Shown piece by piece: positions 42,943 through 56,352 of a stretch of 64,000 nucleotides of DNA (its first letter is position 1; each line of letters opens with the position of its first letter). Below the pieces are notes generated by a model. The model did not search any database, had not been told where the DNA came from, and saw nothing but the letters and a program-made list of their open reading frames with translations. A program made the translations under genes and the position numbers. Origin of the DNA: Thauera sp. K11 (GTDB lineage: Bacteria; Pseudomonadota; Gammaproteobacteria; Burkholderiales; Rhodocyclaceae); the NCBI RefSeq assembly GCF_002354895.1, contig NZ_CP023439.1, positions 3,348,001 to 3,412,000 on the forward strand, written 5' to 3'.

Positions 42943-43809
42943 GTGTACGACCTGCTCGTTTCGCCCTTCATCGATTTCGCCTTCATGCGCCGTGCGCTCG
43001 CCGGCTGCCTTGCGCTGGCGCTGGGCGCCACGCCGGTGGGCGTGTTCCTGCTGCTGCGGCGCATGAGCCTGATGGGCGACGCCATGAGCCACGCCATCCT
43101 GCCCGGCGCGGCGCTGGGCTACCTCGCCTTCGGGCTGTCGCTGGGCGCGATGACGGTGGGCGGCATCGTCGCCGGCATCGTCGTGGTGCTGGCTGCGGGG
43201 GTGGTGACGCGCGCCTCGATCCTGAAGGAAGACGCCAGCCTCGCCGCCTTCTACCTGTTGTCGCTCGCCGCCGGCGTCATGATCGTGTCGCTGCGCGGCC
43301 GCAACCTCGACCTGCTGCACGTGCTGTTCGGCTCGGTGCTGGCCCTGGACGACGGCTCGCTGCTGCTGATCGGCGGCATCGCCACGCTGACGCTGTTCGG
43401 CCTGGCGCTGCTGTTCCGCCCGCTGGCGCTCGAATGCTTCGACCCCGCCTTCCTGCGCGGCGTCAGCCGCTGGTCGCCGGTGGCGCATTACGGCTTCCTG
43501 ATGCTGGTGGTGCTCAACCTGGTGAGCGGCTTCCATGCGCTGGGCACGCTGATGGCCGTCGGCATCATGATCCTCCCGTCGGCCGCCGCGCGGCTGTGGG
43601 CGCACGAACTGCCGGCGCTGCTCGGGCTCGCCGTCGTCTTCGCCGCGGCCAGCGGCGTCGCCGGCCTGCTGCTGTCGTTCCATGCCGACGTGCCGGCCGG
43701 CCCGGCCATCGTGCTGATGTGCGGCCTGGTCTATTTCGCCTCGCTGCTCGCCGCCCCCGGCGGCCTGCTCGCCGGCCGCCTGCCGGTGCGCCACCACCTC
43801 GAGTCCTGA
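42943..43809 (+). CDS. znuB: Zinc ABC transporter permease ZnuB
   Basis: 288 residues, ABC-3 family permease with about eight spans. LLLRRMSLMGDAMSHAILPG is the family hallmark; LGTLMAVGIMILPSAAAR is the second. The start is GTG at 42943 with a weak ribosome site, 42 bases after znuC. Forms the membrane channel for Zn uptake with ZnuA and ZnuC. Confidence 0.9.
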   Translation: MYDLLVSPFIDFAFMRRALAGCLALALGATPVGVFLLLRRMSLMGDAMSHAILPGAALGYLAFGLSLGAMTVGGIVAGIVVVLAAGVVTRASILKEDASLAAFYLLSLAAGVMIVSLRGRNLDLLHVLFGSVLALDDGSLLLIGGIATLTLFGLALLFRPLALECFDPAFLRGVSRWSPVAHYGFLMLVVLNLVSGFHALGTLMAVGIMILPSAAARLWAHELPALLGLAVVFAAASGVAGLLLSFHADVPAGPAIVLMCGLVYFASLLAAPGGLLAGRLPVRHHLES

Positions 43810-43826
43810 CCTTCCCGGAGAATCCC

Positions 43827-44762
43827 ATGCGCCTGCCGTTCCACCGCGCAGCGGCCGCCGCCTGCGCCGCGCTGCTCGCCCTTCTCGCCGTTCCCCGCGC
43901 GAATGCCGCCCCTGCACTGGAAGTGACCGCCAGCTTCAGCATCCTGGGCGACTTCGTGCGCCAGGTCGGCGGCGACCGCGTCGCGGTGCGGGTGCTCGTC
44001 GGCCCCGACGAGGACGCTCACACCTTCCAGCCGCGGCCGTCGGATGCGCGCGCGCTCGGCCGTTCGAAGCTGGTGGTGGCCAACGGCCTCGGTTTCGACG
44101 ACTGGGTCCTGCGCCTGGCCAGTTCGGCCGGCTTTCGCGGCAGGATCGTCGTCGCCAGCACCGGCGTGCGCAGCCTCGGCATGGAGGACGGCGGCAGCCA
44201 CGGCGGCGAGGACGGCCACGGCCACGATGGCGGCATCGACCCGCACGCCTGGCAGGACGTGGCGAACGCCCGGCGCTACGTCGCCAACATCGCCGACGCG
44301 CTGGCCGCCGCGGACCCGGACGGCGCGGCCGCCTACCGCGCCAACGCGGAACGCTATGCCGGCCAGTTGAAGGCGCTCGATGCCGAGATCCGCGCAACGC
44401 TCGGTGCCCTGCCGGCGACGCGGCGCAAGGTCGTCAGCTCGCACGACGCCTTCGGCTACTTCGCGCACGCCTACGGCATCCGCTTCCTGGCTCCGGTCGG
44501 GGTGTCGAACGATGCCGAACCCACCGCGCAGGGCATCGCGCAGCTCATCCGCCAGATCAAGGCGGAGGAAGCTCCCGCCGTCTTCGTCGAGAACATCGCC
44601 GACCCGCGCCTGATCGAGCGCATCCGCAGCGAGAGCGGCGCCCGCGTCGGCGGCACGCTGTATTCCGACGCGCTGTCGGCCGCCGGCGGCCCGGCGCCGG
44701 ACTACCTGTCGATGATGCGGCACAATCTGAAGGGCCTGAAGGAGGCGCTGTCGCCGCGCTAG
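43827..44762 (+). CDS. znuA: Periplasmic zinc-binding protein ZnuA
   Basis: 311 residues with a Sec signal peptide (cut near ANAA). Cluster A-I solute-binding fold: DEDAHTFQPRPSD supplies the first His, a His/Asp/Gly-rich loop (SHGGEDGHGHDGGIDPH) is the zinc-chaperone loop, SSHDAFGYFAHAYG the third ligand, and TLYSDALS the last region. The loop's His content favours zinc over manganese. Last gene of the zur-znu unit, 17 bases after znuB. Confidence 0.92.
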   Translation: MRLPFHRAAAAACAALLALLAVPRANAAPALEVTASFSILGDFVRQVGGDRVAVRVLVGPDEDAHTFQPRPSDARALGRSKLVVANGLGFDDWVLRLASSAGFRGRIVVASTGVRSLGMEDGGSHGGEDGHGHDGGIDPHAWQDVANARRYVANIADALAAADPDGAAAYRANAERYAGQLKALDAEIRATLGALPATRRKVVSSHDAFGYFAHAYGIRFLAPVGVSNDAEPTAQGIAQLIRQIKAEEAPAVFVENIADPRLIERIRSESGARVGGTLYSDALSAAGGPAPDYLSMMRHNLKGLKEALSPR

Positions 44763-44801
44763 CCTGCAGGGGGTCCCGATCCTGCGGAAACGTCGAATTG
44801 G

Positions 44802-44867
44802 TGCACTGCAACAAAAAATAGTTGACGGCTGGCGGCACGTCCTTATACTGCCCAATGTTGCAGCGCA
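44802..44867 (+). promoter_or_regulatory. Phasin promoter flanked by inverted TGC-type repeats
   Basis: A sigma70 promoter TTGACG (44822-44827), 16-base spacer, TATACT (44844-44849). It is bracketed by TGCACTGCAACA (44802-44813) and TGTTGCAGCGCA (44856-44867), which are inverted copies with 11 of 12 bases equal. PhaR repressors of phasin genes bind TGC/GCA-rich sites, so these are candidate PhaR operators. Confidence 0.65.
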
Positions 44868-44926
44868 CAATAATGCGCCAGACAGATTCGCAACCGGACC
44901 CACCACACCCACCCAGGAGATCGCCC

Positions 44927-45514
44927 ATGAACTACTTCACCACCCCCAACGCCTTTACCGCGGCCAACAAGGCCAGCCTCGAAGCCCTGCAGAACCTGGT
45001 CGCAAGCACCCAGAGCCGCGCCGAACGCCTCGCCGCGCTGAACATGGAAGTGCTGCGCAGCGTGCTGGAAGACGGCGCCGCCACCGCCAGGACCCTGCTC
45101 GAGATCAAGCAGCCGCAGGATCTCGCCAAGCTGCAGCAGGACGTCGCCCAGCCGGTGGTCGACAAGTTCGTCGATTACAGCCGCAGCGTGTTCGAGATCG
45201 CGAGCGAAGGCCAGCAGGAACTCTCGAAGCTGGTCGAAGCCCAGATCGCCGAAGTGAACCAGGCGTTCGCCGAAGCGCTGGCCCGTGCCGAGAAGTCGGC
45301 TCCCGCCGGTTCCGAGCCGCTGTTCGCGGGCGTGAAGCAGGCGATCGCCACAGCCAACGAAGCCTACGCCGAGTTCACCAAGCTGGTGAAGCAAGCCACC
45401 GAGACCCTGGAAGCCAACCTCGCCGCGGCGAAGAAGGCCGTCGTGCCGGTGTCGGCCTTGGCGCCCGCCCCGGCCCCGAAGCGCACCGCCGCCAAGAAGG
45501 ACGCCTCCGCCTGA
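44927..45514 (+). CDS. phaP: Phasin family protein (PHB granule surface)
   Basis: 195 residues, helical and amphipathic, phasin_2 family: starts MNYFTTPNAFTAANKASLEA, central LLEIKQPQDLAKLQQD..., and an Ala/Lys/Pro-rich tail (APAPAPKRTAAKKDASA) as in PhaP proteins. Coats polyhydroxyalkanoate granules and controls their size. CAGGAG precedes the ATG. Own promoter with candidate PhaR sites and a strong terminator make it a single-gene unit. Together with the depolymerase-like gene at 15 kb it suggests PHB storage. Confidence 0.92.
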   Translation: MNYFTTPNAFTAANKASLEALQNLVASTQSRAERLAALNMEVLRSVLEDGAATARTLLEIKQPQDLAKLQQDVAQPVVDKFVDYSRSVFEIASEGQQELSKLVEAQIAEVNQAFAEALARAEKSAPAGSEPLFAGVKQAIATANEAYAEFTKLVKQATETLEANLAAAKKAVVPVSALAPAPAPKRTAAKKDASA

Positions 45515-45878: not shown

Positions 45879-48464
45879 ATGAAGCGCGCGCCGGCCGTCC
45901 TCGCCCTCCTCGCTGCGGTCTTCGTCGCCGCCATCCCCATCGCCGCCACGACGCAGCAGGAAGGCGCCGGCGCGACACCCGCCACCGCCCCGCCGGCGGC
46001 CGGCACACCGCCCGCGGCGAAGGTCGTCCATGAACAGGACGTGCCCTACTACGAAGCCTGCGCGCGCGAGGGGCTGAACGAGTCCGAATGCGCCGGCCGC
46101 CTGATCTGGTTCAAGGCCACCGCGGGCAACGAGCGCTTCCACACCTACGTCTTCCAGCAGCGCGTCGGCGTGCTGATCGACTGGTACCGCGTGCTGCGCG
46201 CCGACCAGCGCGGCGACCGCTTCCGCGCCTGGGGCATCATCAACGATCCGTCGTGCTGCGTGCCGGGCGCGAAGAACTGCCCGGCCAAGAGCCTGGACGA
46301 AACCTACGGCTTCGACTGGTGCCCGGGCGACGAGGAACTGCTCGGCTACGTCGGCCGCGGCGGCTATCCCGAGCCGGCCTGCGATTTCCGCGATGCGCCG
46401 CTCGCGCAAGGCGATCCGCACGGTGCCGCCGACCAGCGCCAGTCGGCTTGCGATCTGCGCTTCGGTACCTCGACCGGGGCGCTGGGCATCCGCAAGTTCC
46501 CAAACCCGCGCTTCGACAGGGCGGCCTGGATCAGGCTCAACGGCCACGCCGGCTCGTGGGAGGGCTACGGCCGGCCGATCGCCGCCGCGGGCGGTGGCGG
46601 CGAGGCGGCGCGCTCGCACCTGCAGGACGGCGCGGTCGAACCGCCCTTCCTGATCGGCACGTCCTGCGGTTCCTGTCACATCGCCTTCGATCCGCTGAAT
46701 CCGCCCGCCGATCCGGCGAACCCGAAGTGGGACAACATCAAGGGACTGGTCGGCAACCAGTACAGCCGCATCTCCGAGATCATGGTGTCGGGCATGCCCG
46801 GCAACACGCTGGAATGGCAGATGTTCGCGCACGCCCGCCCGGGCACCAGCGACACCTCGGCGATACCGACCGACCAGGTGAACAACCCGGGCACCATCAA
46901 CGCGCTGATCAACATCGCCAGGCGCCCGACCTTCGCCGACGAGGCCGTCCTCAAGTGGCGCAAGGCCGCAAGCTGCAGCGACGACAAGGACGAGGCGAGC
47001 TGCTGGTGCGAGCCCGGGCGCAGCGGCAAGTGCTGGAAGAAGTCGCCCGGCAACGACACCGTGCATCACATCCTGAAGGGCGGCGAGGATTCGATCGGCG
47101 CGCTGGAGGCGATCCAGCGCGTGTATTTCAACATCGGCTCGTGCTCGGAGCAGTGCTGGGTGAACCACCTCTCCGACCTGCGCCAGCTCGATCCGCAGCA
47201 GCGCGGCTTCGGCCAGACGCCGTTCGACATCGGCCAGTGCCGGCGCGACTGCCCGCATTTCCGCGCGATCGAGGACCGGCTGGGCGACATCCTGGCCTTC
47301 TTCCTGTCGGCCGAGGCGCACGTCGCCGACCTGCGCGCCGCACGCGAGAACGTCCGGCGCGCGGCCATGCCGACGGCGACCTACACCGACCAGGACCTGA
47401 TCGCCGACCTCGAGAACGAATTCGGCGCCGGCGCGGTCGCGCGCGGCAGCGAAGTCTTCGCCGGCACCTGCGCGCGCTGCCACTCGAGCCAGCCCGAGGC
47501 GCTGGCCGGGGCGTTCGCCGCGCTGGACTTCCACAAGGCCGACCCCGCCACCGGCATGCGCGAGGACTGGATGGGCAACGACCGCGCCACGCCGGTGTCC
47601 GAAGTCGGCACCTTCCGCTGCCGCGCACTGCATTCCAACCACATGGCCGGCCACGTGTGGCAGGAATACGGCTCGGAGACGCTGCGCGCGCGGCCGCCCG
47701 ACCCCAACGTGAAGGAGCCGGGCGACGGCGGACGCGGCTACTACCGCAACGTCTCGCTGCTCAATCTGTGGGCGCACGCCCCCTTCCTGCACAACAACGC
47801 GCTCGGCCCGGAACTGTGCGGCAAGCCGAAGAACGCGGCGAACGACTTCTACGCCCAGCGGCCGCGCTATGTGGACGGCACCAGCGTCAGGCTGCTGCCT
47901 CCCGGCGAGCAGCCGGCCTGCTTCGAGTACGACCCCGGCGTGGAAGGGCGCTTCCGGCTGTACAAGGCATCGATGGAAGAGCTGCTGAACCCGGCGCAGC
48001 GCGTCCCCAAGGTCACGCTGCTCAACGAAGACGTCACGCTGCGCATCGGCCCGCGGCTGTGGGACGGCACCGAGAAGGAAAAGCTGCTGGGCTTTTCGCT
48101 CACCATCCCGCACGAGATCGAAGGCCGCGGCGTCACCGCCGGCACGCTGGGCAATTTCCAGCACAAGCAGTTCGTCGTCGACCTGGTGCGCGCCAGGACC
48201 GACGCCAAGTCGCTCGGCAACGACCTGGCGCAGCGCTTCGGCGCCGAGACCGGCGACAAGGTGCTGCAGGACCTGCAGGCGATCGCCGGCGAACTGGCCG
48301 GCAAGCCCGATGCCCTGGTCGCAGCGCTCAAGGCGCGGCCTTACCTCATCAAGCAGATCTACAGCAGTTGCACCGCCGAGATCGAAAACGAGGGCCACCG
48401 CTTCGGCGAGGACCTGCCCGAGGCCGACAAGAAGGCGCTGATCGCCTTCCTCGCCACGCTGTGA
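45879..48464 (+). CDS. Large di-haem c-type cytochrome of unknown function
   Basis: 861 residues with a signal peptide (KRAPAVLALLAAVFVAAIP, cut near AAT). Two CxxCH haem sites: CGSCH at 263-267 and CARCH at 531-535. Many extra Cys (CCVPGAKNC, CWCEPGRSGKC, CSEQC) suggest disulfides outside the cytoplasm. The C-terminal NLWAHAPFLHNNALGPELCG resembles the APYLHNGSVP segment of the two paralogues at 51.7 and 53.3 kb, so all belong to the same cytochrome c peroxidase/RoxA-like superfamily. CGGAGG precedes the start. First gene of the five-gene cluster. Function unknown; a periplasmic oxidase, peroxidase or oxygenase is possible. Confidence 0.75.
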   Translation: MKRAPAVLALLAAVFVAAIPIAATTQQEGAGATPATAPPAAGTPPAAKVVHEQDVPYYEACAREGLNESECAGRLIWFKATAGNERFHTYVFQQRVGVLIDWYRVLRADQRGDRFRAWGIINDPSCCVPGAKNCPAKSLDETYGFDWCPGDEELLGYVGRGGYPEPACDFRDAPLAQGDPHGAADQRQSACDLRFGTSTGALGIRKFPNPRFDRAAWIRLNGHAGSWEGYGRPIAAAGGGGEAARSHLQDGAVEPPFLIGTSCGSCHIAFDPLNPPADPANPKWDNIKGLVGNQYSRISEIMVSGMPGNTLEWQMFAHARPGTSDTSAIPTDQVNNPGTINALINIARRPTFADEAVLKWRKAASCSDDKDEASCWCEPGRSGKCWKKSPGNDTVHHILKGGEDSIGALEAIQRVYFNIGSCSEQCWVNHLSDLRQLDPQQRGFGQTPFDIGQCRRDCPHFRAIEDRLGDILAFFLSAEAHVADLRAARENVRRAAMPTATYTDQDLIADLENEFGAGAVARGSEVFAGTCARCHSSQPEALAGAFAALDFHKADPATGMREDWMGNDRATPVSEVGTFRCRALHSNHMAGHVWQEYGSETLRARPPDPNVKEPGDGGRGYYRNVSLLNLWAHAPFLHNNALGPELCGKPKNAANDFYAQRPRYVDGTSVRLLPPGEQPACFEYDPGVEGRFRLYKASMEELLNPAQRVPKVTLLNEDVTLRIGPRLWDGTEKEKLLGFSLTIPHEIEGRGVTAGTLGNFQHKQFVVDLVRARTDAKSLGNDLAQRFGAETGDKVLQDLQAIAGELAGKPDALVAALKARPYLIKQIYSSCTAEIENEGHRFGEDLPEADKKALIAFLATL

Positions 48465-48480
48465 TTGCCGGGGATACGCC

Positions 48481-49401
48481 ATGAAACCGATCCCGACCCT
48501 TGCACTGAGTCTGTGCGCCGCCGCCGCGCTGGCACCGTCCGGCTGCGGCTTCTTCGAAAACGCCGAGGACAAGGCCGCGCCGCCGATCTCGTTCGCGCCC
48601 TACACCGAGCACTACGCCGGCAAGCCCGATTTCGCCTACGTCGAGCACCGCTTTCCGCTGGCAACCGCCGACCTGTACAAGATCACGCCAAAGAACCTGG
48701 CCTTTCTCGACCAGGAACAGGTGGACCAGATCTACGCGCGGCTGTCCGCCGGGCCGATCCCCGACGGCCCGTTCGAGGGCGACCTGTTCTTCCCGCGCGG
48801 CGGCAGCGGCAAGCTGCGGCTGTCGGAGATCGCCGGCGGCGGCCTCAAGAGCCTGTTCGTGAACGTCGCCGGCGCCAAGCTCGACCTCATCGGCGAGACG
48901 CTGTGGAAGGGCAAGGTCTTCTATCGCGACCAGCGCCTGTTGCGCAACCGCATCGAGGATCTGTCGGCGCTGAAGAAGCTCGGCCTGGTCGAGGACAGCA
49001 CCGCCAACCCGCTGCAGAAGGTGCACGTCGGCGGCAAGGACCAGTGGCTGCTGTTCCCGGCCAAGCTGTACTGCGGCCAGAGCCTGCTCGACGGCCGGCG
49101 CGAATCCATCGTCATCGACTACGCCTTCACCGACGAACTGCCGGGCTACCGCCGCATGCCCGACATGATGGCCGGCCGCGACGGCTTCGCCATCCGCGAC
49201 GAGATCCGCATGGTGTATCCCGGCTTCTATCTCGGCCGCGCCTACATGGACCGCGTCTTCGTCGTCAATTTCGTGCTGTACAACAAGGACGTCGCCGAGC
49301 GCGCCAGGGAAGAATTCCTCAAGACCGGCCAGGTGCAGCAGGACTGCTGGGGCGGCACGCAGCAGCGCCTGGTGGTGATGGGGCAAGGGGGCACCGGGTA
49401 A
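48481..49401 (+). CDS. Putative lipoprotein of the cytochrome cluster
   Basis: 306 residues. Hydrophobic start (MKPIPTLALSLCAAAALAP) followed by SGC, a near-lipobox (Pro at -3 is not canonical). No haem motif. Recurrent basic/aromatic beta-like stretches (DLFFPRGGSGKLRLSEI, GKVFYRDQRLLRN, FYLGRAYMDRVFVVNFVLYN) but no family I recognise. It starts 16 bases after the first cytochrome and is clearly part of that unit, perhaps a membrane anchor or substrate-handling partner. Confidence 0.6.
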   Translation: MKPIPTLALSLCAAAALAPSGCGFFENAEDKAAPPISFAPYTEHYAGKPDFAYVEHRFPLATADLYKITPKNLAFLDQEQVDQIYARLSAGPIPDGPFEGDLFFPRGGSGKLRLSEIAGGGLKSLFVNVAGAKLDLIGETLWKGKVFYRDQRLLRNRIEDLSALKKLGLVEDSTANPLQKVHVGGKDQWLLFPAKLYCGQSLLDGRRESIVIDYAFTDELPGYRRMPDMMAGRDGFAIRDEIRMVYPGFYLGRAYMDRVFVVNFVLYNKDVAERAREEFLKTGQVQQDCWGGTQQRLVVMGQGGTG

Positions 49402-49473
49402 GGCTGCTGGCCGCCCGCGGGCCGCGCCCGGAAGGCGCGCACGGCCCGAGTCCCCACGCACGCGGGGGCGGAC

Positions 49474-51677
49474 ATGCTCCGATGGACATCGCTGCTTGCG
49501 GCTCTGACACTGGCCCTCGCGCCGTCGCCGGACGGCGCGAACGCCGGCGGCGCGGCGCAACCGGCCGGCGCCATCGAGCCGCCCGGGCCCGACCTGCCGC
49601 CGGCCGGGCGCTCGCTGTTCGACGAATTGTTCGGTGCCGATGCCGACGGCGCATCGCGCTTGCCGTTTCCCTTCCCCGCGCTGTTGCAGCGCATCGCGCA
49701 GCAGCTCGACGCCGGGCAACCGTCGGGAGGATTGTCGGTGGTGCTGATTCCACTGGGCCGCTCGCTGCAGCGCCATGCCGCCGGCGATGTCGACGCCTTC
49801 CGCCATCCGCGCGTGGTCGCGGCCGTCACGGGCGAGCCGCCGGCCGCCGCCCCGCCCGGCCACCCCTACCTGCGCGACCGCCTGTACGTGGCCTACCACG
49901 AAAAGGCCGCGGCCCTGGAGGTGATCAGCTACAACGAGGCCGCCGGCCGCTTCGAATTCCAGCTCGTGCGCAACTACCGCGAGGGCGCCGCACCCGAGCC
50001 CGGCTACGCCAACCGCACGCTCTGCCTTGCCTGCCATCACAACGCGGCGCCGATCTTCTCGCGCCAGTCGTGGGACGAGACCAGCGCCAGCACGCCGGTG
50101 GCCGCGCGGCTCGCCGCCACCGGCCTGCCCTACTACGGACTCGCATGGCGCCACGGCGTCGATGTGCCGGACGCGATCGACACCGCCGCCGCGCGCGCCA
50201 ACCTCCTCGGCACCGCTCAGCGCCTGTGGCGCGAAGGCTGCGCCGCGCCCGACCGCAAGGCCGCGGTCGCCTGCCGTGCCGAAGCCCTCCGCCAGGCCCT
50301 GCGCCATCGGCTGACGGACGGCCGCAGCACCACGGCGGAACGGCGCGCCCGCCGGCCCGCCCTGGTCGAACCGCTGCTTGCGAACTGGCGGCAGCGCTGG
50401 CCGGCGGGGCTGGCGATCCCGGACCCGTCGCTGCCCAACCGCCAGCCGTTCGCCGGCATCGAGGGCGGGCGGCCGCAGCCGTCCGACGACGAACTGCGCC
50501 GCTACGCCGACATCGCCGCCGCCTTCGACCCGCTCGCACTGCGCGCACCGCTCGAGACGTGGCCGGGCCGCAGCGCCGCCGACGCCGGCCGCTTCGTGGC
50601 CGCGCTGTCGATGTTCTTCTCGCGAGCGGACGTCGCCGCCATCGACCGCGCGCTGAGTGTCCTGTCCGCGTCTCCTGCCGCCGCCACCGCGCGGGCTGCG
50701 GAACGCGGGAACCCCGCCTTGGCCGCCCTGGCGGACGGTCGCATGGCGTCCATCCGCCACATCGCCCTGTCCTGCAGCGGACGGAAAACCACCGACCACG
50801 GTCGGCTCGACCTGGACTGCGCCGGCGCCGACGGCGCGCGGCTGCAGGCTCGCCTCGTGCTGAAGGCTGGCATGGCGACCGGCGGCACCGCCGACCGGCT
50901 GGTGCTGCCCGGCAACGACGCGATCGGCGCCGTCGCGCTGAAACCCGCCGCCAACCGCCGGCAGCGGGCCGGGGCGGAGACGATGCGCTTCATACCGGAC
51001 CGCGGCGGCCGCACCGTGCGCACCGCCGGCGGCGAAGCGATCCGCCGGATCGACATCCCGCGCCCGGCCGCGAACGCCGCCGCGCCAGCCACCGCCACCC
51101 TGGAACTGGTCGCCGATCTGGCGCCGCTGGATGTGGCGATCGATCGGCTCGCCCAGGCCACGCTCGCCGGCCGGAGCGACGCCCTGGACGATCTGCCGCT
51201 GCGCCGCTCGGCCTTGCTGCCCGCGCTGCTGACCGACCTCGGCACGCCGGCGCCCGCGCCGCCATCCGCAGCGCCATCCGCACCGCGGCTGGCCGATCCG
51301 CCCGCGGCGCGCGACGGCGCCTGGCCGCCCGAACTGCAGCCTTTCGCGCGCCAGTGCGGCCAGTGCCATGCCGCCGCCACGGCCTTTCCCCCGGGCTTCC
51401 TGCGCGGCGGCGACGAACAGGTGCGCGGCAGGATCGCCGCCTGTGCCGAGCGCATGCTCTTTCGCCTGGCGATGAACGCACGCCCGCCCGCCGCGCGGCC
51501 CAAGACGCCGATGCCGCCCCCGCCGCCGCCCATGCCGCGGCCTTCGCGCAATCGCCCGACTATCCGGCGATGACCGCCCTGCTCGAGGGCCTGCTGGCGC
51601 AGCGCGCGCTTGCGCCGGCCGGCGTGCTCGCCCGCCCCTACGCAACACTCGCCCCCTGCACGGCAGGCGCCGAATGA
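49474..51677 (+). CDS. Di-haem cytochrome c protein, probable one-base frameshift near the end
   Basis: As read, 699 residues ending in a Pro/Arg tail at 51573. A signal peptide (MLRWTSLLAALTLALAPSPD, cut near ANA) is followed by two haem sites, CLACH at 184-188 and CGQCH at 628-632. After MPPPP the normal-looking sequence SPDYPAMTALLEGLLAQRAL lies in another frame and runs to a stop at 51677, 22 bases before the next gene. One extra C in the C-run 51517-51521 joins the two into 734 residues. I therefore give the longer span. Other relatives unknown; it may carry electrons for the paired cytochromes. Confidence 0.65.
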
Positions 51678-51699
51678 TGCCGCGCCGAGGAGGATCGCC

Positions 51700-53301
51700 A
51701 TGACTCCGTCCCCCCGCCCCCAATCGCCGCGAGCCTCGCCGCCGGCCGCGCCGCGCAGGCGGCGCTGGCTGTCGTGGCGCCTCATCGTCTGGCTGCCGTG
51801 GATCGCGATCCTGATCGCCGCGCTGTATGCGGCCGCGCGCTTCCTGCCGGACGAAGCGGTCACCTACGACGACCCCGTCCAGCACTTCAAGTACGGCTCC
51901 ACCGGGGGCGAGCGCGAGTCGGGCTTTCCGTACTGGATCTGGCAGGCCCTGCCGCGGGTGTGCGCCGAACACCTGCCGGGCGGCGGGCGCGATGCCGACG
52001 CGGCAGCGGAGGCGGGACATGCCGCGCGCGGCACGGCGGACTACGCCGCGTTCGGCCTGATCTACGAGGAAGGCCGCGACCTGCCGATCGGCGTATCGAA
52101 GCGGCGCCACCTCGGGCTGGACCGCGTGTTCCTGAACTGCGCCGCCTGCCACACCAGCACCGTGCGCGATGCGCCGGACGCCGCGCCGCGCATCATCGCC
52201 GGCATGCCGGCGCACCGCTTCGACATCCGTGCCTTCGAGACCTTCTTCTTCAACTGCGCCGCCGGCCCCCGGTTCTCGCGCGAATTCATCGTGCCCGAGA
52301 TCGAGCGCCTCGCCGGCGGCCTGGGCCCGATCGACCGCTACCTGGTATACCCGGTGGCGATCGCCCTGATGCGCGAACGCCTGCTGATGCTGCGCGGCCG
52401 CTTCGCCTTCGTGTTCGAGCAGCCGGAATGGGGCCCGGGGCGGGTCGACACCTTCAACTCGGCCAAGGTGCTGTTCAACTTCCCGATGAAGCAGTTGCCG
52501 GCGCACGAACTGCTCGGCGCGTCGGATTTCCCCTCGATCTGGAACCAGAGAAAGCGCATGGCGCGCGACGACGGCCAGCGCATGGAACTGCACTGGGACG
52601 GCAACAACACCCATACCGAGGAACGCAACAAGAGCGCCGCGTTCGGCACCGGCACCACGCCGCCCACCATAGACCTCGCCGCGATCGGCCGCGTGGAAGG
52701 CTGGCTGCTGGATGCGGCGCCGCCGCCCTTCCCCTACCCGATCGACCACGGGCTTGCCGCGCGCGGCGCGCCGCTGTACGCCGAACGCTGCGCCGCCTGC
52801 CACGGCACCGGCGGCAGCGACTTCCGCGGCGCGAGGGTCGGCCATGTGACGCCGATCGCCGACATCGGCACCGACCGCGCGCGGCTGGATTCCTACACCC
52901 GCGACCTCGCGGTGAACCAGGCCACCCTGTACGCCGGCTATCCGCACCGCTTCCAGCATTTCCGCAAGACCCGGGGCTACGCCAACATGCCGCTCGACGG
53001 CATCTGGCTGCGCGCGCCCTACCTGCACAACGGCTCGGTGCCCACGCTGCGCGACCTGCTCGAACCCGCATCCGCACGCCCGGCGAAGTTCGCGCGCGGC
53101 AACGACATCTACGACCCGGCGCGCGTGGGCTTCGCCTGCGCCCTGCCCGCCGGCCCGGCGCAGGCCGCCGCCGCGGGCCTGTTCGCCTACGACACCACCC
53201 TCCCCGGCAACGGCAACGCCGGCCACGAAGGCCACGTCTACGGCACCGACCTGCCCGCCGCCGACAAGGATGCGCTGGTCGAATACCTGAAGACCTTCTA
53301 G
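51700..53301 (+). CDS. Membrane-anchored di-haem cytochrome, RoxA-like superfamily, paralogue 1
   Basis: 533 residues. A basic cytoplasmic start (APRRRRWLSWR) and one membrane helix (LIVWLPWIAILIAALYAA) put the rest in the periplasm. Haem sites CAACH at 147-151 and 364-368. Features shared with the next gene: GFPYWIWQALPRV, LPIGVSK, NCAACH, LRAPYLHNGSVPTLRDLL and GTDLPAADKDALVEYLKT. The pattern resembles rubber-oxygenase RoxA/RoxB and di-haem peroxidases, but the catalytic role is not established here. GAGGAGGATCGCC precedes the ATG. It lies 22 bases after the previous gene's extended stop. Confidence 0.75.
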   Translation: MTPSPRPQSPRASPPAAPRRRRWLSWRLIVWLPWIAILIAALYAAARFLPDEAVTYDDPVQHFKYGSTGGERESGFPYWIWQALPRVCAEHLPGGGRDADAAAEAGHAARGTADYAAFGLIYEEGRDLPIGVSKRRHLGLDRVFLNCAACHTSTVRDAPDAAPRIIAGMPAHRFDIRAFETFFFNCAAGPRFSREFIVPEIERLAGGLGPIDRYLVYPVAIALMRERLLMLRGRFAFVFEQPEWGPGRVDTFNSAKVLFNFPMKQLPAHELLGASDFPSIWNQRKRMARDDGQRMELHWDGNNTHTEERNKSAAFGTGTTPPTIDLAAIGRVEGWLLDAAPPPFPYPIDHGLAARGAPLYAERCAACHGTGGSDFRGARVGHVTPIADIGTDRARLDSYTRDLAVNQATLYAGYPHRFQHFRKTRGYANMPLDGIWLRAPYLHNGSVPTLRDLLEPASARPAKFARGNDIYDPARVGFACALPAGPAQAAAAGLFAYDTTLPGNGNAGHEGHVYGTDLPAADKDALVEYLKTF

Positions 53302-53318
53302 CAAGGAAGGAGATCGCC

Positions 53319-54883
53319 ATGACATCCGCCTTCCCGGACGCCGCCCCCGCTCCGCTGCGGGCCGGCCCTACCCCCGGACGCACGCCGGCGGCAGCCTTCC
53401 CCGCCGCCGCCGGAAGCGGAGCGCGCGACACAGGGCCGCCGGCTTCGGCATGGCCGCCCTCGTCGCGCTGGTGCTGGTGCTGGGCGCGGCGGGCGGCGCC
53501 TTCGCCTGGTACAAGTTCTTCCGCGAGGAGCCACAGCCGGAGTGGATCACGAACGATCCGGACATGCGCTTCAAGTACGGCTCGATCGGCGCCGAGCGCG
53601 ACGCCGGCATTCCGTACTGGATCTTCTACGTGCTGCCGCGGGTGTTCCCCGACCTGCTGCCGGGACCGGGCGGCTACGCCTCCTTCGGGGTGGTGTGGGA
53701 GGAAGGGCAGGAGTTGCCGGTGGGCTTCTCGAAAAAGGTGGCGGGCTTCCCGCGCGTGGCCAACAACTGCGCGTCCTGCCACGTCGCCAGCTACCGCACC
53801 GCGCCCGACGCGCCGCCGGTGCTGGTGCCCGCCGGGCCGAACCACACGCTGAACCTGTGGGCCTTCTTCCGCTTCCTGGTCGATTGCGCAAAGGATCCGC
53901 GCTTCAACGCCGACAACCTGATGGCGGAGATCCGCCTCGTCACCGGCATGTCCTTCGTCGACCGCATGCTCTACCGCTTCCTCATCATTCCGGTCACGAA
54001 GAAGCGCCTGCTCGAACGCGAACGCCAGTTCGCCTGGCTGTACCGCGCCGATTTCCCGCCCTGGGGCCGCGGCCGCGACGACGCGATGAACCTGACCAAG
54101 TACTTCATGATCCGCTGGCCGATGGACGACAGCCTGGGGCCGACCGACATGCCCTCGATCTGGAACCTGGGCAAGTACAAGCCCGAGCGGGGCATGCGCC
54201 TGAACTTCGCCGGCGACAGCCACGATCCGTATTCGGTGATCATCGATTCGGCGCTCGGCCTGCTCGGCGCGCCGCCCAAGGACAACGCCGAATTCCTCGG
54301 CCACGTCAAATGGATACAGGACTACGTCACCGCGAAACGCGCGCCGCCCTACCCCTTCCCGATCGACGCCGCCCAGGCCGAACGCGGCAAGGCGGTGTTC
54401 GACGCTGCCTGCGCTGCATGCCACGCCTCCGCGCGCACCGGCACCGTGGTGCCGCTGGCCGAGATCGGCACCAGCCGCGACCGCATCGACACTTGGAACG
54501 AGAAGGCCGCGCGCGAGGCGAACGAGGTCGTGCGCGACATGGGCATCGAGCGCCCGGGCCTGGTGGAGGCACCGCTCACCGGCTACGTCGCCGCCTTCCT
54601 GGACGGCATCTGGCTGCGTGCGCCCTATCTCCACAACGGCTCGGTGCCCTCGCTGCGCGACCTGCTGCTGCCGCCGGCCGAGCGCCCCGCAACGTTCTGG
54701 CGCGGCTACGACGTGTATGACCCGGCGCGGGCCGGCTTCGTCAGCAGCGGCCCCGAGGCCGAACGCGCCGGCACCCGCCACGACGTCGCAGCCAAGGGCG
54801 GCGGCAACCAGGGCCATGCCTTCGGCACCGATCTGCCGGCGGCCGACAAGGACGCACTCGTCGAATACCTGAAGACTTTGTAG
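53319..54883 (+). CDS. Membrane-anchored di-haem cytochrome, paralogue 2, with a 5' frameshift
   Basis: The intact frame runs 53450-54883 (477 residues) from MAALVALVLVLG. An ATG with AAGGAGATCGCC at 53319 lies in another frame: MTSAFPDAAPAPLRAG..., the Pro/Ala-rich start expected from paralogue 1. One extra C in CCCC (53399-53402) joins them as FPRRRRKR, a basic patch before the membrane helix, exactly as in paralogue 1. Haem sites CASCH (107-111 of the intact frame) and CAACH (321-325). Periplasmic, same family as the gene before; different in the middle region, so probably not redundant. Last gene of the cluster. Confidence 0.7.
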
Positions 54884-54963: not shown

Positions 54964-56352
54964 CTAGCGCGAGCGCAGCAGGTCGAGGTCGGACGGATTG
55001 CGCTCGTCGCGGTAGGCCGGCTCGCCGTCCGGTACCGGCCCGGCGAAGCACTGCACCAGCACATTGCCCTGCTGCCGGTCGCGGAACAAGGGTTCGACCG
55101 CGCAGGGCCCATACACCGACTGGATGGTGCCGAGCAGCTTGCGCGCATAGGGCGTGGCCAGCCGCTGGTCGAGGATGAGGTTGATGAACGTCACCCCGCC
55201 GGGCGCGAGCGCACGCCGCGTCGCGCTCCAGAACTCCTGCGTGACCAGGTGGGCGGGCACGCTGGTCAGCGCGCTGTAGGCATCCACCACGATGGCGTCG
55301 TAGCGTTCGGCGGTGTCGGCCACGTAGCGGCGGGCATCGGCGGCGATGAAGCGGCCGCGCACCGGCTCGCGCAGGAACTCGCGCTCGGCCAGTTCGCGGA
55401 TGGCCGGGTCGATGTCCACATAGGTGTAGTCGTTGGCCGGCTCCCGGTGCGACAGCGTGAAGCCGCCCGCGCCGAGCACCAGGATGCGGCGACCGCGAAA
55501 ACCCATCTCGTCCAGCAGCAGGGTGCGCAGGCGCTCGATGTAGCGCGTGTAGCGCGGCGGCTCGCCGCCGTCCATCAGCGAGGCGAGGGAGTTGTTGATC
55601 CAGAACACGCGCGGCTCGTGCATGCCGGGCAGTTCCACCGCCTCCACCCGGTAGGTGGCGTAGGCGGTTTCGATCTGCTGCGGCAGCCACAGGTTGGCGG
55701 CGAGCGCCGCCGCGCCGAGCGCACCGCCCAGCCCGTTGCCCGGCCACGCCGGCCGCCCCGTGGCGGCGGGCAGGAAAGGCACCGGCGCGAGCAGCAGCGC
55801 CGCGCAGACGAGAATCGCCGCGGACACGCCCAGCCACTGCATCACCAGCAGCGAGAGCGACAGCGAGCCGAGAAAGGAACCCAGCGTGGACCAGTACAGC
55901 GCCGCGCCGCTGCGCGCACCGGCGCGTTCGTGGCGCAGCAGGTTGGTGAGTATCGGCACCGTCTGGCCCAGCAGCCAGGCGACCGGGCACAGCACACCGC
56001 CGACGAAGACCAGATAGGCGAGCCAGGCCGGGCGCAGATGGGCGAACAGCGCGTCCACGACCGGTCCGGCCATGCCGATCGCGATCAGTGCCGCCGCAAC
56101 GAGGAAATTGACGCGCACCCGCGGCAGGAAATCCTGCCCCACGCGGCCGCCGGCCTGGTAGCCGAGCGCGAGTGCGAGGAGGAAGAAACCGATCGTCGGC
56201 GCGGTGACGGTGATCGAACTGCCGAGGAAGGGAAGCAGCCGGCGCAGGGCCAGGATCTCGGCGCCGAGCGAGGCATAGCCCTCGACGAACACCAGCGCGA
56301 AGAGCAGGCGGGGTGAGGGCATCGACGCGCCGTGGCGCTCAGCGGACGCCAT
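54964..56352 (-). CDS. Polyamine-synthase-like methyl/aminopropyltransferase with membrane domain
   Basis: 462 residues. The N-terminal half has about six or seven membrane helices (FVEGYASLGAEILALRRLLP, LAYLVFVGGVLCPVAWLLG), and the C-terminal half is a spermidine-synthase-like Rossmann domain with ILVLGAGGFTL (GxGxG), YVDIDPAI, FIAADARRYV and the catalytic-type DAYSALTSVP. Proteins of this fused kind are usually annotated spermidine synthase but their substrate is unknown. It faces the cytochrome cluster tail to tail. Start at 56352 rather than the second Met (56322); neither has a strong ribosome site. Confidence 0.78.
   Translation of the reverse strand: MASAERHGASMPSPRLLFALVFVEGYASLGAEILALRRLLPFLGSSITVTAPTIGFFLLALALGYQAGGRVGQDFLPRVRVNFLVAAALIAIGMAGPVVDALFAHLRPAWLAYLVFVGGVLCPVAWLLGQTVPILTNLLRHERAGARSGAALYWSTLGSFLGSLSLSLLVMQWLGVSAAILVCAALLLAPVPFLPAATGRPAWPGNGLGGALGAAALAANLWLPQQIETAYATYRVEAVELPGMHEPRVFWINNSLASLMDGGEPPRYTRYIERLRTLLLDEMGFRGRRILVLGAGGFTLSHREPANDYTYVDIDPAIRELAEREFLREPVRGRFIAADARRYVADTAERYDAIVVDAYSALTSVPAHLVTQEFWSATRRALAPGGVTFINLILDQRLATPYARKLLGTIQSVYGPCAVEPLFRDRQQGNVLVQCFAGPVPDGEPAYRDERNPSDLDLLRSR

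Follow-up and report, generated by a model that had tools for sequence, protein, structure and literature searches.

What might a run of five same-strand genes, four of them encoding di-haem c-type cytochromes and one a lipoprotein, do in the periplasm of a Thauera? We addressed this question for genes g1 to g5 of Thauera sp. K11, which lie at 45879-54883 (+) of the window, the 64,000-nucleotide stretch of contig NZ_CP023439.1 (positions 3,348,001 to 3,412,000) that was analysed. A first-pass annotation had described this arrangement, with its eight CxxCH haem sites, correctly, and its suggestion of a periplasmic oxidation system for an unusual substrate fits our results, with a hydrophobic substrate. 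Its statement that no pathway could be recognised proved too broad, as related clusters carry alpha-dioxygenase, lipoxygenase and patatin genes, which narrows the candidate chemistry to fatty-acyl lipid oxygenation. The answer that we favour, with confidence at about the even mark, is a periplasmic, inner-membrane-anchored di-haem module that oxygenates unsaturated fatty-acyl lipids.

The gene cluster and its five protein families

The co-occurrence and recurrent order of the five genes show that they are a real module. The complete set was found in 19 of 101 genomes, the source genome counted, and a partial set in three more: g1 was present in 22 genomes, g2 in 20, g3 in 22 and a strong g5 match in 19, and the same 19 genomes held all of them, the presence of g4 being read from the g5 search as the second match in each genome. 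Weak g5 matches alone were obtained in G010, G036, G047 and G081. The order g1-g2-g3-g4-g5 was contiguous on one strand in 36 of 104 loci, in 34 of 102 after removal of duplicates (L053/L090 and L058/L079), and in 28 of the 80 named loci, which represent the best 80 of 565 g5 relatives. Duplicates are also excluded from the 91-locus counts given below and are retained in the 104-locus, 80-locus and motif-conservation counts and in the residue counts over 86 g4 and 85 g5 proteins; genes of unannotated loci come from our own codon-usage caller, with starts and small genes uncertain. By their titles, the 28 named full-order loci belong to proteobacteria and to Nitrospira/Nitrospirales bins, and the 80 loci with a g5 relative, many of them metagenome bins, also span Cyanobacteria, Acidobacteria, Verrucomicrobia, a Phycisphaeraceae and a Gemmatimonadetes bin. 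Among these best 80, the closest named relatives were two Thauera bins (83-84% identity in g5), and the g5 of Azotobacter chroococcum (83%) is nearer than that of Denitromonas (72-75%), which suggests horizontal transfer. Found together elsewhere, the five genes also do not dissolve into unrelated, already characterised families: Pfam and NCBIfam gave no family for g2 or g3, and g1 reached the cut-off of only the generic cytochrome c model PF00034 (21.6 versus 21.3 bits).

Each of the four haem proteins contains two CxxCH motifs, compared with 0.000-0.016 expected from 2000 shuffles, and three of them share the LHNxxLG/LHNGSVP region, as had been noted (Table 1). Read directly from the sequence rather than by a predictor, the N-termini of g1 and g3 carry signal-peptide-like segments and those of g4 and g5 a hydrophobic, membrane-anchor-like segment. 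The spacing of 16 to 72 bases claimed at first pass holds for the first two gaps only (16 and 72 bases); with the preferred starts, the g3-g4 and g4-g5 gaps measure 126 and 148 bases, and an alternative TTG start of g4 at 51610 shrinks the former to 36. The first in-frame ATG, GTG or TTG of g5 is at 53450, where a clear ribosome site is absent, and a strong Shine-Dalgarno sequence precedes an ATG at 53320 that lies in a different frame. No promoter was found in the window by consensus.

Table 1. Position, haem-related motifs and assignment of the five genes in the window
Gene	Position	Strand	Length (aa)	Motifs	Assignment
g1	45879-48464	+	861	CGSCH263, CARCH531, PFLHNNALG	Di-haem c-type, probably exported, RoxA/MauG-like C-terminal half
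g2	48481-49401	+	306	CxxCH = 0, lipobox-like Cys22	Lipoprotein, putative lipid carrier
g3	49474-51573	+	699	CLACH184, CGQCH628	Di-haem c-type, probably exported, without a known family
g4	51700-53301	+	533	CAACH147, CAACH364, PYLHNGSVP	RoxA-like, anchor-like N-terminus, putative dioxygenase
g5	53450-54883	+	477	CASCH107, CAACH321, PYLHNGSVP	g4 paralogue, anchor-like N-terminus, putative hydroperoxide-converting enzyme

Judged by sequence, g4 and g5 belong to the RoxA superfamily, as paralogues of ancient origin. They are 44% identical, which bears out the paralogy proposed earlier; PF21419, the family of RoxA-like cytochromes, is matched by both (E 1e-16 for g4 and 5e-16 for g5), and both of their profiles match the RoxA structure 4b2n, with the C-terminal region aligning. 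The histidine of the MauG motif is conserved in 86 of 86 g4 and 85 of 85 g5 proteins of at least 430 aa. In a FastTree tree of 171 sequences, a clade with a support of 0.997 comprised 80 g5 proteins and one g4, leaving 85 g4 and five long g5-labelled proteins of type III loci outside. Since this clade mixes proteins from type I loci (g2 or g3 present) and type II loci (an Old Yellow Enzyme, OYE, present), the split between g4 and g5 is older than both cluster types.

The two paralogues differ at two positions of the RoxA active site. Phe317 lies near the haem-bound O2 in RoxA, and RoxB has valine at the Trp302 position (PMC6311187, available part); both residues are described as strictly conserved in active rubber oxygenases in the passage concerned of PMC10837239. 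At the corresponding columns, fixed by the RoxA alignment and the A1-A2 comparison, g4 of the window has W and F, and g5 has F and L. Across all relatives, W was present at the first column in 86/86 g4 and 45/85 g5 proteins and F at the second in 50/86 and 0/85, respectively; with duplicates removed, g4 of type I loci had W+F in 43/44 and W+Y in 1/44, and no type I g5 had F at the 317 column (0/45). Because it keeps the equivalents of both residues, g4 resembles an O2-activating oxygenase, and g5 departs further.

Profile comparison also linked g1 to this superfamily: its profile matched that of the g5 family with 99% probability (E 5e-18 over 119 columns), the LHN histidine was conserved in 35 of 42 relatives, and on this basis the C-terminal half of g1 is RoxA/MauG-like. 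The twelve nearest folds of its predicted structure (pLDDT 84.7) were all MauG, with weak matches (E 0.06 to 0.5). RoxA/MauG as the nearest family, as proposed at first pass, thus holds for g4, g5 and half of g1; for g3, profile comparison detected no likeness to RoxA, and we dropped the idea of a further RoxA-like protein. The 34 relatives of g2 gave two single weak Pfam matches (E 0.058 and 0.29), and Cys22 is conserved in at least 90% of them. For the predicted structure of g2 (pLDDT 82.2), the best PDB fold was 4mve (E 4e-4), followed by a long run of retinoic-acid-/fatty-acid-binding proteins and lipocalins with low TM-scores (E at least 0.04), interspersed with a few unrelated proteins. 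We accordingly regard g2 as a predicted lipocalin/fatty-acid-binding-protein-like barrel and a putative lipid carrier, a lead, not proof.

Neighbouring genes of related clusters

After removal of duplicates, the 91 g4/g5 loci comprised 44 of type I, 26 of type II, 10 of type III and 11 others. The layout of type II is OYE-g4-small membrane protein-g5, and in Rhizobium a g1 relative, a GMC oxidoreductase and a patatin-like phospholipase come after g5. With family names checked on cluster representatives and counts inflated by related species, patatin clusters were found in 15 loci, an alpha-dioxygenase cluster in 7, a lipoxygenase cluster in 4 and any of the three in 23, namely 15 of 26 type II loci, 7 of 44 type I loci and one other. 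Genes adjacent to the pair (n = 243) included more of these enzymes than the other genes of the loci (n = 694), with 12 versus 3 for patatin, 6 versus 1 for alpha-dioxygenase and 3 versus 1 for lipoxygenase. The family scan of adjacent genes covered 80 of 117 cluster representatives, with 25 of 127 families listed. In a control of 118 of the 567 eligible distal genes (120 drawn, two dropped), patatin, GMC, OYE, lipoxygenase and haem peroxidase were not among the 25 of 183 families listed, where single matches may hide; one gene of this sample, from L140, is a lipoxygenase gene that fell into it because its gap exceeded the 200-base cut.

Individual loci place these enzymes close to the pair. 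Downstream of g5 in four Nostoc/Fortiea loci, the second gene encodes a lipoxygenase (PF00305, checked in L098), and the Nostoc enzyme matched 5mef with an E of 3e-127. Halomonas-type loci have a haem peroxidase gene between diverging g4 and g5; the protein in L107 is a full-length homologue of fatty-acid alpha-dioxygenase (E 1e-111), and the enzyme of L088, from the same protein cluster, is a homologue too (E 2e-61). In L087 and L088 (Aestuariibacter and Alteromonas), an enzyme of this cluster, a second protein, a weakly g2-like protein, g4 and g5 follow one another on the same strand, with no g1 or g3 found in 21 kb (tblastn, 1e-6). In L044, a type I locus, the first start of a patatin-like open reading frame, if used, would give it a 4-base overlap with g5.

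Several further observations concern the surroundings of these loci. Multicopper oxidase and tyrosinase genes were found close to the Sinorhizobium type II locus (L041, 1-3601). TIR-domain genes lie downstream of g5 in L053, L055 and L057, a hint of a defence or signalling link. Three extra genes separate g1 from g2 in L044 (6433-9219) and in L045, which belongs to G074, a genome without a g5 match; those of L044 encode a repeat-rich lipoprotein-like protein, a LipL45/FecR-like protein and a small membrane-like protein. The type II cluster of R. johnstonii 3841 lies on pRL11 (RL_RS32240-RL_RS32270), and its GMC gene differs from GmcA of R. leguminosarum, which is pRL100444 (PMC7105596, available part). 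In the window itself, the region upstream of g1 (42943-45514) holds a phasin gene and, separated from it by one open reading frame, a zinc ABC transporter permease gene (AztB-like, 244.7 bits, below the cut-off of 280). On the opposite strand, a gene for 462 aa (54964-56352) converges on g5 and by eye resembles a fused membrane/spermidine-synthase-type protein.

Proposed function and alternative explanations

In the module that we propose, the g2 lipoprotein would hold or present the unsaturated lipid, as its weak fold match hints. g4 would then bind O2 at its N-terminal haem, as RoxA does, and may dioxygenate the acyl chain to a hydroperoxide, a step suggested by its superfamily and its Trp302/Phe317 pair. 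By analogy with the oleate diol synthase of Pseudomonas aeruginosa (FadCcp), which consists of the 10S-dioxygenase PA2077 and the 7,10-diol synthase PA2078 (PMC4496055, available part), g5 would convert or disarm this hydroperoxide. g1 and g3 may serve as di-haem redox partners or further oxidases, which is the weakest step. Overexpressed PA2077 was toxic, an effect attributed to its hydroperoxide, and co-expression of PA2078 abolished the toxicity (same part of PMC4496055); a need for such protection would account for g4 and g5 staying together.

A number of observations weigh against this proposal, the inflated neighbour counts among them. No lipase, lipoxygenase or alpha-dioxygenase was recognised beside the cluster of the window, and the 44 type I loci seldom have lipid enzymes (patatin-cluster genes in 5, alpha-dioxygenase in 2). 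The g4 proteins of type II lack Phe317 (W+L in 22/27 and W+I in 5/27, duplicates removed). The fold search with g1 gave no match at E ≤ 0.001 and that with g2, whose matches are weak, gave one only, and the g2 relatives of L087 and L088 are short (154-167 aa), weak and missed by tblastn at 1e-6. Three relatives carry g1-g3 genes without g4 or g5 (g1, g2 and g3 in G074; g1 and g3 in G042 and G063), so g1-g3 may have a separate job. The region in which g5 starts (53302-53450) may be frame-disturbed; a slip in sequencing, a genuine change of frame or an atypical start would each fit. As for the models, PA2078 stayed active without either haem (PMC4496055, available part), so the analogy says little about the chemistry of g5, and two RoxC proteins, also relatives, are described as having no rubber oxygenase activity and no known function (PMC10837239, available part).

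The substrate could instead be another hydrophobic unsaturated compound, such as hopanoids, carotenoids, terpenes, squalene-like isoprenoids or rubber, which the module would oxygenate or cleave; the RoxA superfamily, the retention of Trp302 and Phe317 in g4, and a lipocalin/CRABP-like g2 carrier would suit isoprenoids too. We consider this unlikely, given that g4 and g5 scored only 45-77 bits with the NCBIfam profiles of RoxA, RoxB and RoxC, whose cut-offs are 900-1000, that where oxygenases were recognised beside related clusters they are fatty-acid enzymes, and that rubber oxygenases are described as extracellular (PMC10837239, available part), in contrast to the anchor-like start of g4 and g5. 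The same scores, obtained from the profile check against RoxA and RoxB proposed at first pass, make rubber in particular an unlikely substrate. A peroxidase or detoxification role, in which H2O2 or lipid hydroperoxides would be removed with electrons supplied via the four di-haem proteins, is somewhat harder to credit. The family NF040606 is named a di-heme-cytochrome C peroxidase, several di-haem proteins per operon suggest an electron chain, and PA2078 has been proposed to relieve hydroperoxide toxicity (PMC4496055, available part); on the other hand, Phe317 of RoxA has been linked to stabilisation of bound O2 (PMC6311187, available part), the neighbouring lipoxygenase and alpha-dioxygenase make rather than remove hydroperoxides, and a non-exhaustive scan of recurrent neighbour clusters recognised no family known for a role in peroxide stress.

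MauG-like protein modification, in which g1 and its partners would oxidise a partner protein to generate a redox cofactor, appears the least probable of all. It would agree with MauG as the nearest fold of g1 and with a LodA/GoxA-type quinone-cofactor oxidase gene near a g1-like and GMC locus of Mesorhizobium (L042, 372-3933); this gene occurs in one locus only, a MauG match as weak as E 0.06 is expected for any di-haem relative, and apart from g2 no obvious substrate protein recurs. We also hold it to be very improbable that the four multihaem proteins form a respiratory or extracellular electron transfer chain with no lipid link, despite their number and the fact that several of the named hosts (Thauera, Denitromonas, Nitrotoga and Nitrospira) are denitrifiers or nitrifiers. 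The non-exhaustive scan of recurrent neighbour clusters found no terminal reductase or oxidase complex, the families of g4 and g5 are RoxA-like rather than electron-carrier families, and related clusters have lipid-enzyme neighbours.

If lipid oxygenation is taken as the working explanation, its possible reach is wider than this one locus. Oxylipins are well known in eukaryotes. We tentatively put forward that bacteria may have a widespread oxylipin pathway, so far undescribed, of which this cluster would be the version found in proteobacteria. In it, an ancient pair of membrane-anchored di-haem cytochromes would take the part that lipoxygenases and cyclooxygenase-like enzymes play in plants and animals, g1-g3 would form a lipid-delivery and redox unit, and lipoxygenase, alpha-dioxygenase, OYE, GMC and phospholipase modules would be exchanged across phyla so that different oxidised lipids arise, to serve in signalling or defence. 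Both PA2077/PA2078 and the rubber oxygenases were already known; in the literature found, fatty-acid oxygenation by a di-haem pair is documented for that of P. aeruginosa alone (PMC4496055, available part). Relative to the open-licence literature searched, two elements are new: kin of these known proteins as members of a cluster of five genes, three of whose families are unnamed, and the association of the same pair with genes for lipoxygenase and alpha-dioxygenase. That literature yielded no account of the five-gene cluster, and the passages on pRL110 in PMC3333776, PMC11103875 and PMC11406972 concern other kinds of gene. If related pairs lie in conserved clusters in Thauera, Nitrospira, Nostoc, Rhizobium, Azotobacter, Halomonas-type bacteria and others, the oxygenation of lipids by cytochromes of the c type may be widespread among bacteria as a general trait. 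From the gene sets, concrete hypotheses follow for the roles of g1, g2 and g3, and the idea can be tested directly in cultured hosts such as Azotobacter chroococcum and Rhizobium johnstonii 3841.

Comparison with known di-haem systems

MauG and bacterial cytochrome c peroxidase share with the cluster the di-haem core and the HNG motif, and MauG is the nearest fold to g1; they differ in size, at about 35-40 kDa compared with proteins of 477-861 aa here, and the fold match of g1 is weak. The TTQ_mauG profile scored 9.6 bits on g5 against a cut-off of 443.85 and was not listed for g1, g3 or g4. In the NF040606 subfamily (cut-off 150 bits), g4 scored above the threshold (170.9) and g5 just below it (145.7). 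Fifteen listed matches from the class sample scored 411-609 bits over positions 1 to 523/524, unlike g4 and g5, whose best stretches are in the C-terminal part, from position 414 or 425. With RoxA, RoxB and RoxC, both g4 and g5 have in common two c-haems and the MauG motif PY(F/L/M)HNGSVP, and g4 also has Trp302 and Phe317 of RoxA, neither of which is present in g5 of the window. The pair is set apart from rubber oxygenases by anchor-like N-termini, the five-gene cluster, the lack of any recognised isoprenoid enzyme nearby, and profile scores far below the cut-offs, on which membership of that group was rejected.

Among Pseudomonas genomes, PF21419 was matched in 209 of 298 from the genus of P. 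mediterranea. In two samples that P. aeruginosa possibly falls outside, PA2077/PA2078 was not identified: 30 loci from the 298 genus genomes did not contain it, and a degenerate DNA pattern for PYFHNGSVP gave 0 matches in 298 family genomes. In Pseudomonas loci around G468 (L131, L132, L133, L141 and L143), a relative of 622-634 aa lies beside a protein of 1111-1150 aa and, on its other flank, a protein from a cluster that is metallophosphatase-like in L106.

The comparison with PA2077/PA2078 rests on the published description, in its available part (PMC4496055). By that description, the P. aeruginosa proteins are longer (634 and 624 aa, versus 533 and 477 aa for g4 and g5), a membrane helix is predicted for PA2077 only, in contrast to the anchor-like segment of both g4 and g5, and nothing corresponding to g1, g2 or g3 is mentioned. 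PA2077 has Trp251 and Phe269 at the two RoxA positions and PA2078 Ser243 and Phe260, so PA2078 has the Phe317 equivalent that g5 lacks. The likeness lies in an adjacent paralogous pair of RoxA-like di-haem proteins with very similar identity (43.4% there and 44% here), in the MauG-type motif PY(F/L)HNGSVP, and in a Trp302 equivalent in one member only, the other having Ser243 in P. aeruginosa and Phe in g5 of the window. This pattern of one member with and one without the Trp302 equivalent holds in the window; across the relatives, 45 of 85 g5 proteins do have W.

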